64,000 nt of DNA from Pseudomonas oryzihabitans (GTDB lineage Bacteria > Pseudomonadota > Gammaproteobacteria > Pseudomonadales > Pseudomonadaceae), in NCBI RefSeq assembly GCF_001518815.1, contig NZ_CP013987.1, positions 4,114,501-4,178,500 of the forward strand, given 5' to 3'. Position 1 is the stretch's first letter, and every line of letters starts with the position of its first letter. The translations under genes and the position numbers were made by a program. Shown piece by piece: positions 46,724 to 50,109 of the stretch. The notes under the pieces are model-generated. The model had not been told where the DNA came from. It saw nothing but the letters and a program-made list of their open reading frames with translations, and ran no database searches.

Positions 46724-47008
46724 GAATTCGTTGTCCTCTCGCACCGCTCGTGACGGTGGCTGCGATCGACCAGGAATGGTGACCTGGGCGGGCCCGGGCG
46801 CGGCGGACGGGATACCGTCGTTGGCGATGCGAAAGGCCCTCCTGGGGCACTTCCGTTGGACAGCTCTACCGGGCTATCGAAGTTGAGTTCAGCTTACGCC
46901 CCTGCCGCCGGCAGAGGTTTGCGTTGTGCGCACTCTTTCCTGCCTCTTGCGCAATTCATGGCTAGAAACCTAGGATTGGACGCAACCCGATAGCGCAAGG
47001 CATGGAAA

Positions 47009-47488
47009 ATGGACAAACTCGATCGCTTCGATCTGAAAATATTGGCAGAACTGCAGCGCGATGCGCGTCTCTCCAATCAGGAGCTGGCCGAACGCATTGG
47101 CCTGTCGCCCTCGCCCTGTTCAAGACGAGTCAAGCAACTGGAAGACAGCGGCTACATTACCCGCCAGGTGGCCCTGCTGGATCGCAAGAAACTTGGCCTG
47201 TCGCTGACCGCCTTCGTCCTCATCGGCATGGATAGACACACCCCGGAGCGCTTCGAGAACTTCCAGGCGATCATCGCCCAGTGCCCCGAGGTGCTGGAGT
47301 GCTGCCTGGTCACCGGCATGGATGCGGACTATCAGCTCAAGGTCGTCGTGCCCGACATGGAGCACTATCAGCAGCTGCTCTTGGGCACCCTGACGCGCAT
47401 CGAAGGCGTCTCCAGCGTGCGGTCGAGCTTTGTGCTCAACCAGATCCTGGCCAGTACCGAACTACCGCTCAACCACCTGCGGTCCTGA
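47009..47488 (+). CDS. Lrp/AsnC family transcriptional regulator
   Basis: 159 residues. LDRFDLKILAELQRDARLSNQELAERIGLSPSPCSRRVKQLEDSG is the Lrp helix-turn-helix; the RAM ligand domain (about 65-150) has CPEVLECCLVTGMDADYQLKVVVPDMEHY. Such regulators sense amino acids as multimers. Its 3' end overlaps the convergent blh gene by 27 bp. Target genes are not evident. Confidence 0.92.
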   Translation: MDKLDRFDLKILAELQRDARLSNQELAERIGLSPSPCSRRVKQLEDSGYITRQVALLDRKKLGLSLTAFVLIGMDRHTPERFENFQAIIAQCPEVLECCLVTGMDADYQLKVVVPDMEHYQQLLLGTLTRIEGVSSVRSSFVLNQILASTELPLNHLRS

Positions 47489-48313
47489 GCGCGGCGCGGC
47501 TTCGACGCCGGAGTCGAGAAAACGCGGCAGCACCAGCATATGCGGTACGGCGAAGGCGGCCAGCACGGCGAACAGGGCGCGGATACCGGTACGCTCCTGC
47601 AGCAGGAACACCAGGCCACCGGCCAGGGTAAACAGCGCAGCGCCCAGCAGGATCGGCCACGTCAGGCGCAAATAGGCCTTGAAGGTGGCCGCCCCCAGCA
47701 AACGTTGGCGCACCCCGGTCTGGGGCGCGGCGTGCAGCAGATAGAAGCCCAGGGCGAACCCCACTAGGGGCGGCGCCAGCACCACGGCCAGCAGCGTCAC
47801 CGCCAACCTGGGGCAACGCTGCTGCCAGGCGGCCAGCAACAGCACCGGCAGTGCCAGCAGCCCACCCAGTAGGAGCACGCGGGCTAGCCAGTCTGCGAGG
47901 GCAAGAGAAGCAGCCGGCCCCATGGCCAGGGCCAGCAACCGGGCGACGGCGGCTTCGTGCACCACCGCCGGACCGCCAATGATGAACAGCCCCAAGGCCA
48001 GCGAGGTCAGCCGCTTGGGAAACAGCTCGTCTTCATGGGCGAAATGCCAGGCCGAGAGCAGCAGGAACAGCAGCAGCGCCGCCGTGCCTGCCAGTTGCCA
48101 GCAGAGCAGGCAGGCCAGGGCTGTCGCCAGATAGCAGCCGAGAAAGGCGAGGCGCCGCCCGGGTGCGACCAGGCGCAGATCGCTGGCGCCATGCAGCAGG
48201 CCCAGACCCAAGCCTACCGCCAGGGCGTAGGCCAGTTGCCCGGCCCCGCCCGCCAGGCTGGCGAGCCCGGCGGTCAGCACCAGCGCCAGCCAGCCTCGCC
48301 CGGTCTCCTGCAT
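47462..48313 (-). CDS. blh: Brp/Blh family beta-carotene 15,15'-dioxygenase
   Basis: 283 residues, about eight membrane helices. Conserved polar residues sit in the helices: H41 and D45 (HGASD), H90, H93, E94, D95 (WHFAHED), H119 (VVHEAA), H194 (FYLLHAAPQTG) and H258 (VPHML), the iron-binding pattern of Brp/Blh. The enzyme cleaves beta-carotene into two retinals. ATG 48313 begins 2 bp after the rhodopsin stop codon, so the pair is one operon. A longer frame continues upstream but would overlap the rhodopsin gene and is rejected. Confidence 0.92.
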   Translation of the reverse strand: MQETGRGWLALVLTAGLASLAGGAGQLAYALAVGLGLGLLHGASDLRLVAPGRRLAFLGCYLATALACLLCWQLAGTAALLLFLLLSAWHFAHEDELFPKRLTSLALGLFIIGGPAVVHEAAVARLLALAMGPAASLALADWLARVLLLGGLLALPVLLLAAWQQRCPRLAVTLLAVVLAPPLVGFALGFYLLHAAPQTGVRQRLLGAATFKAYLRLTWPILLGAALFTLAGGLVFLLQERTGIRALFAVLAAFAVPHMLVLPRFLDSGVEAAPRSGPQVVER

Positions 48314-48315
48314 CC

Positions 48316-49008
48316 TTAGACGCCGGTCCGCGCCAGGGCCGCACGCAGATTGCGCTCGGAGGTGAAGGCATAGACCACCTTGGCCAGCACGTCGAGCACC
48401 AGGATGATCCAGATGGTCGCCGCATCGCTCACCATCCACACACCCTCCGGGCCAATGGCGAAGACCACCGGATAGATCAGCCAGAGCACGGTCAGAAAGC
48501 CGGTGTTCTTGCGATAGGCCGCGCCGATCGCGGCATGTTGCCCGGCTAGGGTCGCCAGCGGTTTCCACAGCAGATAGAGCACCCCGACAAAGGCCGCGCA
48601 GGACCAGGCGAAGAACACCCACTTGATGGTGCCGTAGGGCGCCAGGGAGGCCACCAGGCCCGTCACGATCATCACCACGTCCAGGGTGACGATGGAGGCC
48701 ACGAAGCCGCCTTGTCCCTCTTGCTCACGCGCGCCGAGAAAGGCCGAGCTCACCACCCCGGCCAGCAGCAGTGGCGTGGTGAAGGTCCAGTCCAGGTAGC
48801 GGGCGACATAGGTCACGCTGCCATCCGGCTTGATCAGATTGCCAACCCCCAGGTACATGGCCAGATAGGCCGTAGCGGCGATGAAGGGCACGGCGGCGTG
48901 GATCAGGGTGTGGCCGCGTAGCGGACCACGGTGCGCGCCCTTGGCATAGATCGCCAGGGAGGCGAGCGACATGATGACGAAGCCGATTAGCAGGGGTGTC
49001 TGACTCAT
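48316..49008 (-). CDS. Microbial rhodopsin, Asp-Thr-Gly type, putative light-driven proton pump
   Basis: 230 residues, seven helices. Helix C reads RYLDWTFTTPLLLAG: R70, proton acceptor D73, T77, and G84 where bacteriorhodopsin has the donor D96. Helix G has LVLDVLAK with D206 and the retinal lysine K210. H37 lies on helix B at the position of bacteriorhodopsin T46. A Gly donor site plus a helix-B His defines a described group of proteobacterial proton pumps in which the His helps reprotonation. Retinal would come from the downstream blh gene. GGAG precedes the ATG. Confidence 0.95.
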   Translation of the reverse strand: MSQTPLLIGFVIMSLASLAIYAKGAHRGPLRGHTLIHAAVPFIAATAYLAMYLGVGNLIKPDGSVTYVARYLDWTFTTPLLLAGVVSSAFLGAREQEGQGGFVASIVTLDVVMIVTGLVASLAPYGTIKWVFFAWSCAAFVGVLYLLWKPLATLAGQHAAIGAAYRKNTGFLTVLWLIYPVVFAIGPEGVWMVSDAATIWIILVLDVLAKVVYAFTSERNLRAALARTGV

Positions 49009-49160
49009 TGGAGGTCTCCAGAGGGATAAGGGACGCGCATCGGCGGGGCCAGCCGCTCTGGAGTAGGGGTTCCTGGTCTACCGCTGCGCTTAAGGTAGAG
49101 AAGTCGCCGCGTGACTTGGTTCAAAATGTTTCAGTGTTCGCGACCAATCGCTGCAGGCCC

Positions 49161-49174
49161 TTGATCCGGGTCAA
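49161..49174. promoter_or_regulatory. ANR/FNR-like box TTGAT-CCGG-GTCAA
   Basis: The sequence matches the FNR/ANR consensus TTGAT-N4-ATCAA at 9 of 10 defined bases. It lies 58 bp before the globin ATG and 152 bp from the rhodopsin start. If transcription of the globin gene starts near 49209, the box would sit at the class II activator position. It suggests oxygen-dependent control. Confidence 0.6.
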
Positions 49175-49232
49175 GTGGTCCTGGCAGTGGCCGAGGCAAG
49201 CTGCGTCGTTTCGTGTCCGCCCAGGAATTCGC

Positions 49233-49625
49233 ATGCTGCCGGCCCAGAACGTGATGCTGAGCTACGGACGCTGCTGCGCCAGCCCCGCCTTCTTCGATGA
49301 TTTCTATCGGCGCTTCCTGGCCAGCTCGCCTCGGGTAAGGGAGAAGTTCGTCCATACCGACATGGCCGCGCAGAAGCTGCTGTTGCGCCACGGCATCATG
49401 AACCTGGTTCTGGTGGCCCGCGGCATGCCCACCACCAAACTGCGCCAGCTCGGCGAAAGCCATTGCCGGGCACGGCTGGACATAGGCCCCGAACTCTACG
49501 AACTCTGGGTCGACTGCCTGCTCGCCACCCTGGCCCAGCACGATGCCGAATTCTCTCCAGCGCTGCGCCAGGAATGGCAGGACGTGCTGGAGGCAGGGAT
49601 CGCGGTGATGCGCAGCTACTACTGA
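49233..49625 (+). CDS. Bacterial globin
   Basis: 130 residues, a single globin domain with all helices A-H. F39 fits the CD1 phenylalanine (SPRVREKFV), and H77 in LGESHCRARLDI fits the proximal F8 histidine; LYELWVDCLLATLAQHD and WQDVLEAGIAVMRSYY form helices G and H. No reductase domain is attached. Such globins bind O2 or NO. AGGA precedes the ATG. The gene is divergent from the rhodopsin operon and has an ANR-like box 58 bp upstream. Confidence 0.88.
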   Translation: MLPAQNVMLSYGRCCASPAFFDDFYRRFLASSPRVREKFVHTDMAAQKLLLRHGIMNLVLVARGMPTTKLRQLGESHCRARLDIGPELYELWVDCLLATLAQHDAEFSPALRQEWQDVLEAGIAVMRSYY

Positions 49626-49640
49626 GCGGGCCTGGGTCCT

Positions 49641-49834
49641 GTTGGGCTTCGCTGCGCTCAGCCCAACCTACGACACCCGCAGGTTGGGCTGAGAAAGCTC
49701 TACCGTCGAAGCCCAACACCCCAACGCAACGCACCTCACCCAAACGTCCCCTCTCCCTCGGGGAGAGGGCCGGGGTGAGGGCAGTCCATCGCCGTAGGTT
49801 GGGCTGAGACAGCTCCACCGTCGAAGCCCAACAC
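49641..49834. repeat. Family-A palindromes in a composite repeat block
   Basis: An inverted right arm (GTTGGGCTTCGC to CAACCTACG) starts at 49641. Left-arm-type copies start at 49679 and 49794 (AGGTTGGGCTGAGA to GAAGCCCAACA), 115 bp apart, each followed by a family-B hairpin. The block lies between the globin and helicase genes. Confidence 0.9.
49748..49781. repeat. Family-B hairpin repeat, copy 3
   Basis: CCCCTCTCCCTCGGGGAGAGGG followed by CCGGGGTGAGGG, within the composite repeat block after the globin gene. Confidence 0.9.
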
Positions 49835-49862
49835 CCCCAAAGCAACGAACCTGCCCCAAACG

Positions 49863-49897
49863 CCCCCTCTCCCTCAGGGAGAGGGCCGGGGTGAGGG
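49863..49897. repeat. Family-B hairpin repeat, copy 4
   Basis: CCCCCTCTCCCTCAGGGAGAGGG followed by CCGGGGTGAGGG, 115 bp after copy 3, closing the block. The remaining ~210 bp up to the helicase start hold no recognised feature and presumably include its promoter. Confidence 0.9.
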
Positions 49898-50109
49898 CAA
49901 ACCAAACCTCGACATACCGCTATACCCCCAAGACAGCCCAATACCGGCCACCTGCCAGCCACCATCGGTCGGCCAACTCGGCCAATCGCCCGGCAACACC
50001 CGTCTCGCGCTTTACCCGCCGCACCTGCCTGACTAACGTATGACGAAAGGACTTTTGTGCGACAGATCACGGTTTATCCGCCCTGCCTCACACCACGGAT
50101 GGATGACCG

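Follow-up and report, generated by a model that had tools for sequence, protein, structure and literature searches.

Does the rhodopsin gene in this part of the Pseudomonas oryzihabitans chromosome encode a light-driven proton pump, and where would the retinal for such a pump come from? In the 64,000-nucleotide stretch of contig NZ_CP013987.1 that was analyzed (the window), the gene, here called rho, is followed directly by a second gene, blh. The reading that we hold with high confidence is that the two form a light-energy cassette, in which protons would be pumped in the light via His37 (H37) of the rhodopsin, with retinal derived from carotenoids of the host, and from which the host may benefit.

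The rho gene lies on the minus strand at 48316..49008, with its ATG at 49008 and its TAA stop at 48316–48318, and encodes a type-1 rhodopsin of the DTG type with 230 residues; read on the plus strand from 48316 in frame, the stretch contains stop codons. In a Pfam profile search, the protein matches PF01036 with an E-value of 2.2e-39 and 135.7 bits (cut-off 24.6), and it is the single match to this family at E ≤ 0.001 in the 4.83-Mb single-contig genome. Direct numbering of the protein gives H37, D73, T77, G84, D206, and K210. The corresponding minus-strand codons are 48898..48900 for H37, which is on helix B at the position of bacteriorhodopsin T46, 48790..48792 for D73 at the proton acceptor position, 48778..48780 for T77, 48757..48759 for G84 at the position of the carboxylic donor (D96) of bacteriorhodopsin, and 48379..48381 for K210, the retinal Schiff-base lysine. 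In an alignment of 20 rhodopsins, consisting of the window protein and those of 19 of the 24 related loci (the near L025 and L029 and the distant L038–L040 were omitted), H37, D73, T77, D206, and K210 do not vary, and at position 84 there are 18 rows with Gly and 2 with Ser. Among all 24 loci, position 37 is His in 22, the exceptions being L039 (Ala) and L040 (Gly), both ≤36% identical. Judged from the alignment, this pattern of key residues is far beyond chance. The first-pass annotation had named D73, T77, G84, H37, and K210, had placed H37 at the T46 position, and had described the usual carboxylic donor as absent; translation of the reading frame, numbering, and the alignment with known rhodopsins that it had proposed as a check agree on each of these points, there being no Asp or Glu at the donor position of rho, and add the strand, which it had not given.

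The partner gene, blh (47462..48313, minus strand), has its ATG 2 nt past the rho stop and encodes a protein of 283 residues that is assigned as a Brp/Blh-type β-carotene 15,15'-dioxygenase from its match to PF15461 (E-value 3.5e-20, 73.2 bits; cut-off 28); against TIGR03753 it scores 94.9 bits, slightly below the cut-off of 95.25. The 2-nt spacing recurs in 10 of 13 named Pseudomonas loci, including all eight that have the flanks of the window, and in L023, L024, and L026 the first blh ATG is 11, 123, and 59 nt from the rho stop, respectively. No solved structure related to this Blh is present in the PDB at E ≤ 1. The reference used here is the marine 66A03 enzyme, in which, according to the review PMC9227343, replacement of His21, His78, His188, or His192 by Ala leaves <5% of the activity. 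Equated by motif and not by alignment with the 66A03 sequence, these four are taken to correspond to H41, H90, H194, and position 198 of the window protein, so that the window Blh shares the PF15461 domain and three of the four catalytic histidines with the 66A03 type but differs from it in the fourth, which is Gln (Q198; codon 47720..47722, minus strand). In most of the other Blh rows compared, this residue is the second His of an HxxxH motif.

In a 35-row alignment of Blh proteins, H41, H90, and H194 are His throughout. Position 198 is Gln in all 25 rows whose rhodopsin belongs to the SpaR/PspR clade described below, which are closely overlapping strains of one clade and not independent events; clade membership was taken from both rhodopsin trees, identical rhodopsins being placed via their twins. 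The 10 other rows, 3 of which have no rhodopsin on the fetched stretch, carry His in 9 cases and Ala in 1. Rows left out of this alignment were L120 and L121 (weak PF15461 matches, no Blh open reading frame found), L117 and L118 (genomes already represented), and L034 (a short contig without Blh). The Ala row, L038, comes from a lichen Sphingomonas metagenome-assembled genome that has a DTG rhodopsin with H37 lying outside the clade.

Because the window Blh is without the fourth His reported as necessary in the 66A03 enzyme, its supply of retinal is, as judged from sequence, not certain. It could be argued that Blh without this residue makes no retinal, so that rho has no retinal source of its own and the cassette is decaying or Blh has another role, and the <5% activity of the 66A03 H192A mutant (PMC9227343, as far as its available text goes) is in keeping with such an argument. 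The pattern of substitution bears on this question. Two neighboring genes are judged to lie outside the cassette: an Lrp/AsnC-type regulator (lrp; 47009..47488, plus strand; identified as an open reading frame with a Pfam match), which is convergent with blh and overlaps it by 27 bp, and a globin gene (PF00042 by Pfam; 49233..49625, plus strand), which is divergent from rho. In nine comparisons, dN/dS is 0.045–0.170 for rho and 0.143–0.262 for blh, compared with 0.000–0.025 for lrp, 0.041–0.074 for an MFS gene, and 0.048–0.270 for the globin gene. Thus, rho and blh are both under purifying selection. Both show weaker constraint than lrp and the MFS gene, and the values for blh fall within the span seen for the globin gene, itself broken in some relatives; the weaker constraint on blh relative to lrp and the MFS gene also speaks for decay. 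Against it, dN/dS for blh is well under 1 in all nine comparisons, and Q198 is kept in every one of the 25 clade-linked rows, which come from five named genera and one further genome. These observations suit a working variant of the enzyme better than decay, and we regard a decaying cassette or a different role of Blh as highly unlikely.

The rest of the proposed route to retinal appears to be available in the host. The genome contains one gene of the phytoene-synthase family (PF00494), at 1790646–1791419, and five matches to PF05834, one of which is strong (1793020–1794123) and lies close to the PF00494 gene. This carotenoid region (L041) reads, in order, as crtE, a type-2 idi, crtX, crtY, crtI, crtB, crtZ. 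Of these, idi (TIGR02151), crtI (TIGR02734), and crtY (TIGR01789) score above the NCBIfam cut-offs; crtB (461.6 versus 480 bits), crtE, and crtX do not reach the cut-offs of their models, and no model matches crtZ, so that crtB is named from PF00494 and crtE, crtX, and crtZ from gene order and by eye. On this gene content, β-carotene, and probably also hydroxylated or glycosylated forms, should be within reach of the host. In the proposed scheme, this crt cluster elsewhere on the chromosome would provide β-carotene, Blh would cleave it to retinal, and the retinal would then bind to K210 of the rhodopsin.

A tree of 35 proteins places the window protein among 16 rows (15 from Pseudomonas and the PDB chain 7w74) that group together with support of 100/99. 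This set is nested in a clade of 27 rows, also with 100/99, that contains SpaR (PDB 8anq) and proteins from Sphingomonas, Pantoea, Rosenbergiella, and Aureimonas. This clade is separate from the MpR-type rows from Methylobacterium and from a xenorhodopsin chain; the 8xx8 chain in the same tree has T-T-G at the helix-C motif positions. A second, quick tree, from which SpaR was omitted and to which L119 and L123 were added, recovers the same 16-row set (SH-aLRT 99) within 28 rows (99). It should be noted that the rhodopsin trees have long branches; we rely on the strongly supported nodes near the window protein and not on the finer order. The nearest solved chain is 7w74 (residues 1–225 aligned, E-value 4.7e-116, 78% identity), an entry named "Bacteriorhodopsin-like protein" that we take to be the structure of Pseudomonas putida PspR. 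It has H33, H37, D73, T77, G84, D206, K210, G32, and G92 in common with the window protein and differs from it in about 1 residue in 5, including L31 and D95 in place of R31 and E95. SpaR, from Sphingomonas paucimobilis, is more distant (phmmer E-value 3.7e-80); it shares H33, H37, D73, T77, and S121 with the window protein but has S84, H32, E92, and S199 where the window protein has G84, G32, G92, and T198, the last at the S199 position.

SpaR and PspR belong to a group described in PMC10154332 as "mirror proteorhodopsins," whose clade was drawn in that study by blastp clustering; the recognition of a DTG group with a conserved His, including PspR and PaR from Pantoea, is credited there to Harris et al. 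2015. Their DTG/DTS/DTT helix-C motif is present in the window protein as D73, T77, and G84. H32 and H33 are called "highly conservative" in the available text of PMC10154332, which also gives S121 and S199 as present in the vast majority of members; the window protein has H33 and S121 but Gly at position 32 and Thr at the S199 position, where 7w74 and the 15 Pseudomonas rows likewise have Thr. Position 32 is Gly or Ser in all 15 Pseudomonas rows and Gly in 7w74, and the combination of G32 and G92 with Glu or Asp at 95 is found in 14 of these 15 rows and in 7w74, the fifteenth, L022, having S32 and A92. The tree, the 78% identity to 7w74, and the published description in PMC10154332, within its available text, thus support the placement, made in the first-pass annotation, among known proteobacterial proton pumps of the DTG type that carry a His on helix B, and the window rhodopsin is a further member of the SpaR/PspR group and not new in kind.

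Proton pumping by PspR, PaR, and SpaR has been published, together with a crystal structure and mutants of SpaR, (PMC10154332, available text); outward transport of protons at acidic pH, with inhibition by millimolar zinc, serves as a criterion of the mirror proteorhodopsins. By its place in this clade, the window rhodopsin probably pumps protons. A role as a light sensor instead of a pump is regarded as highly unlikely. The lack of a carboxylic donor and the slow photocycle of SpaR in the alkaline range (2.3 s at pH 8.0; PMC10154332, available text) would suit a sensor, and chemoreceptor genes are found near rho-blh in Pantoea soli (L123), where the gene is convergent with blh, and upstream of an MpR-type rhodopsin in Methylobacterium (L050). 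However, there is no transducer among the ten window proteins around rho that were searched against Pfam or among the annotated genes of the relatives L048 and L049; rho is linked to blh instead, and its close relatives pump. Another highly unlikely reading, a light-driven Na+/Li+ pump like MpR, which is cited in PMC10154332 as a reported Li+/Na+ pump, is set aside on residues 30, 31, and 33 and on the tree: the Methylobacterium rows of MpR type (L050 and L051) do share H37, D73, T77, G84, and the Schiff-base lysine with the window protein, but they have Glu, Glu, and Asp at 30, 31, and 33, in line with the carboxylic residues at these SpaR positions by which the MpR type is recognized, lie on a separate branch, and in both rows have a partner Blh that keeps HxxxH, whereas the window protein has L30, R31, and H33 and groups with SpaR and 7w74 at 100/99. 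Since DTG with H37 also occurs in the MpR-type rows, it is the clade and not the motif that carries the proton-pump inference. Light-driven pumping, which had been taken in the first-pass annotation as implied by the residue combination, is thus supported by the clade, but the combination alone is insufficient for it.

For a proton pump of this type, a photocycle can be proposed by carrying over that of SpaR. Light would drive transfer of the Schiff-base proton to D73 and from there out of the cell, and the Schiff base would be reprotonated from the cytoplasm via H37 and a water-filled cavity, a route proposed because position 84 is without a carboxylate. H37 is the proposed donor of SpaR at acidic pH; the pK of the donor is about 5.8, and pumping by SpaR vesicles is seen in the acidic range and is absent at pH 7.5 (PMC10154332, available text). 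By analogy, pumping by the window protein would occur mainly at acidic pH. The mutational results reported for SpaR in the same source are mixed: H37F and H37L block pumping, H37A and H37Y reduce it without a complete block, and H37R, H37K, and H37N change it little. Because most of these mutants still pump to some degree, reprotonation by the His, which the first-pass annotation had given as proposed for the group, stands as a proposal and is not settled. The cavity of SpaR is lined by H32, H33, and E92, which constitute the first proposed zinc site (PMC10154332, available text). Because H32 and E92 are both Gly in the window protein, the pH and zinc behavior of SpaR may not carry over to it.

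A conserved promoter-like element, TGAAACATTTTGAACCAA-N12-CTTCTCTACC, lies upstream of rho at 49094..49133 (minus strand), as found from alignment and pattern searches. It is about 120 nt from the gene, is also present in Pseudomonas loci with unrelated flanks, and is without internal insertion or deletion in 10 rows (the window and nine loci with its flanks). When its 17-base core was sought within 200 nt upstream of rho in the window and 13 named Pseudomonas loci (14 rows), the best match began 118–128 nt before the rho start, with no mismatch in 11 rows, one mismatch in one row, two in L023, and four in L022 (P. quercus). Searches with 21 fixed bases and ≤6 mismatches find nothing of the kind before rho in the loci from Sphingomonas, Rosenbergiella, Aureimonas, and Pantoea; a single match among these loci, in L037, is about 1 kb off and on the other strand. 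An 18-base part of the element occurs once per genome at 0–1 mismatch in the 10 rho-bearing genomes of the genus sample, always at rho; the three genomes of the genus that lack rho contain no sequence within 2 mismatches of it. A 33-base pattern (17 fixed bases) has no second copy in the genome at ≤3 mismatches, the backward control giving 2. A wider regulon was considered and rejected: across the 13 genomes, the 18-base part has 18 matches away from rho at exactly 3 mismatches versus 13 for the backward control, and these 18 therefore look like chance. No sigma-70 promoter pattern was found at 46900–50100. The GAAC and TCT cores of the element are reminiscent of an ECF-type promoter, although the sigma type is not assigned. 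Control by LitR was set aside, since the LitR box of P. mendocina and P. putida, given as TGTACA-N12-TGTACA in the available text of PMC9758184, is unlike the element when the two are compared by eye.

Of the 13 genomes of the genus, 10 have PF01036 and the identical 10 have PF15461; all 13 have PF00494. In a sample of 398 genomes of the family, PF01036 is present in 13, namely those 10 and 3 of another genus. More distant copies are carried on plasmids in Sphingomonas (one record) and Pantoea (two records); pattern scans of viral contigs gave no confirmed relative of rho or blh. The flanks of the pair vary. No flanking gene of the window was found beside rho-blh in L022, L023, L024, L026, and L027; for L023 (P. 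graminis) and L027 (P. fulva), this includes a reading of the surrounding genes. In the three same-genus genomes without rho (L079, L080, and L081), the Lrp-type and globin genes are about 4.4 kb apart, and in L079 the space between them holds, by eye, a [2Fe-2S] subunit, a xanthine-dehydrogenase-like large subunit, and a cytochrome c, a trio that reads as molybdenum-hydroxylase-like. The large subunit is present at this locus in all three (100% for the query itself, 95%, and 87% identity), compared with ≤37% in other genomes. The globin gene was rejected as a part of the cassette: it also occupies this position in the three genomes that lack rho, is split in L011 and L019, and gives a partial match in L009 and L044. 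In the same-genus genome G007, the query gives 82 matches, the majority of them from the intergenic stretch of the window at about 49630–49910, in the manner of a dispersed repeat family.

The comparison with P. oryzihabitans YY7 (L028) bears on the mobility of the region. Between the two strains, dS is 0.044 for rho versus 0.335 for lrp, 0.281 for the globin gene, and 0.239 for the MFS gene. The rho-blh segment of the window (47462–49008) is 95–99% identical to YY7, compared with about 80–90% in the adjoining sequence before rho; identity rises abruptly from about 80% to 99% where rho starts and drops gradually on the blh side. A NERD/helicase gene further on is 97–98% identical to that of YY7. 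Judged from these sequence comparisons, recent exchange is likely but not proved. A broader proposition, which we hold to be evenly balanced, is that the SpaR/PspR clade is tied to an active Gln-type Blh of its own and that rho and blh pass from one Pseudomonas genome to another as a unit that includes a private upstream element and would make a carotenoid-producing strain a user of light in a single step.

The window rhodopsin is thus ordinary in kind, well preserved, and probably a proton pump, and the less expected part, as far as the alignments indicate, is a partner Blh without a His reported to be essential in a relative. What the present analysis adds is the Gln form of Blh, the element before rho, and the finding that rho and blh are present or absent together; the Gln variant is not claimed as unreported, and the words Blh and carotene are absent from the text of PMC10154332. 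As one more sequence in a described group, the rhodopsin offers natural variants (G32, G92, and E95) in the proposed proton-entry and zinc region and can therefore be used to test whether inhibition by zinc needs H32 and E92. The Blh matters more than the rhodopsin, and its Gln-type form is the main lead: if it makes retinal with Gln, the four-histidine requirement of the 66A03 Blh would not be general, and if it makes none, the source of retinal in these bacteria would have to be sought elsewhere. With rho and blh both present or both absent in a genus in which every sampled genome has PF00494, these pseudomonads constitute a natural comparison of light use.
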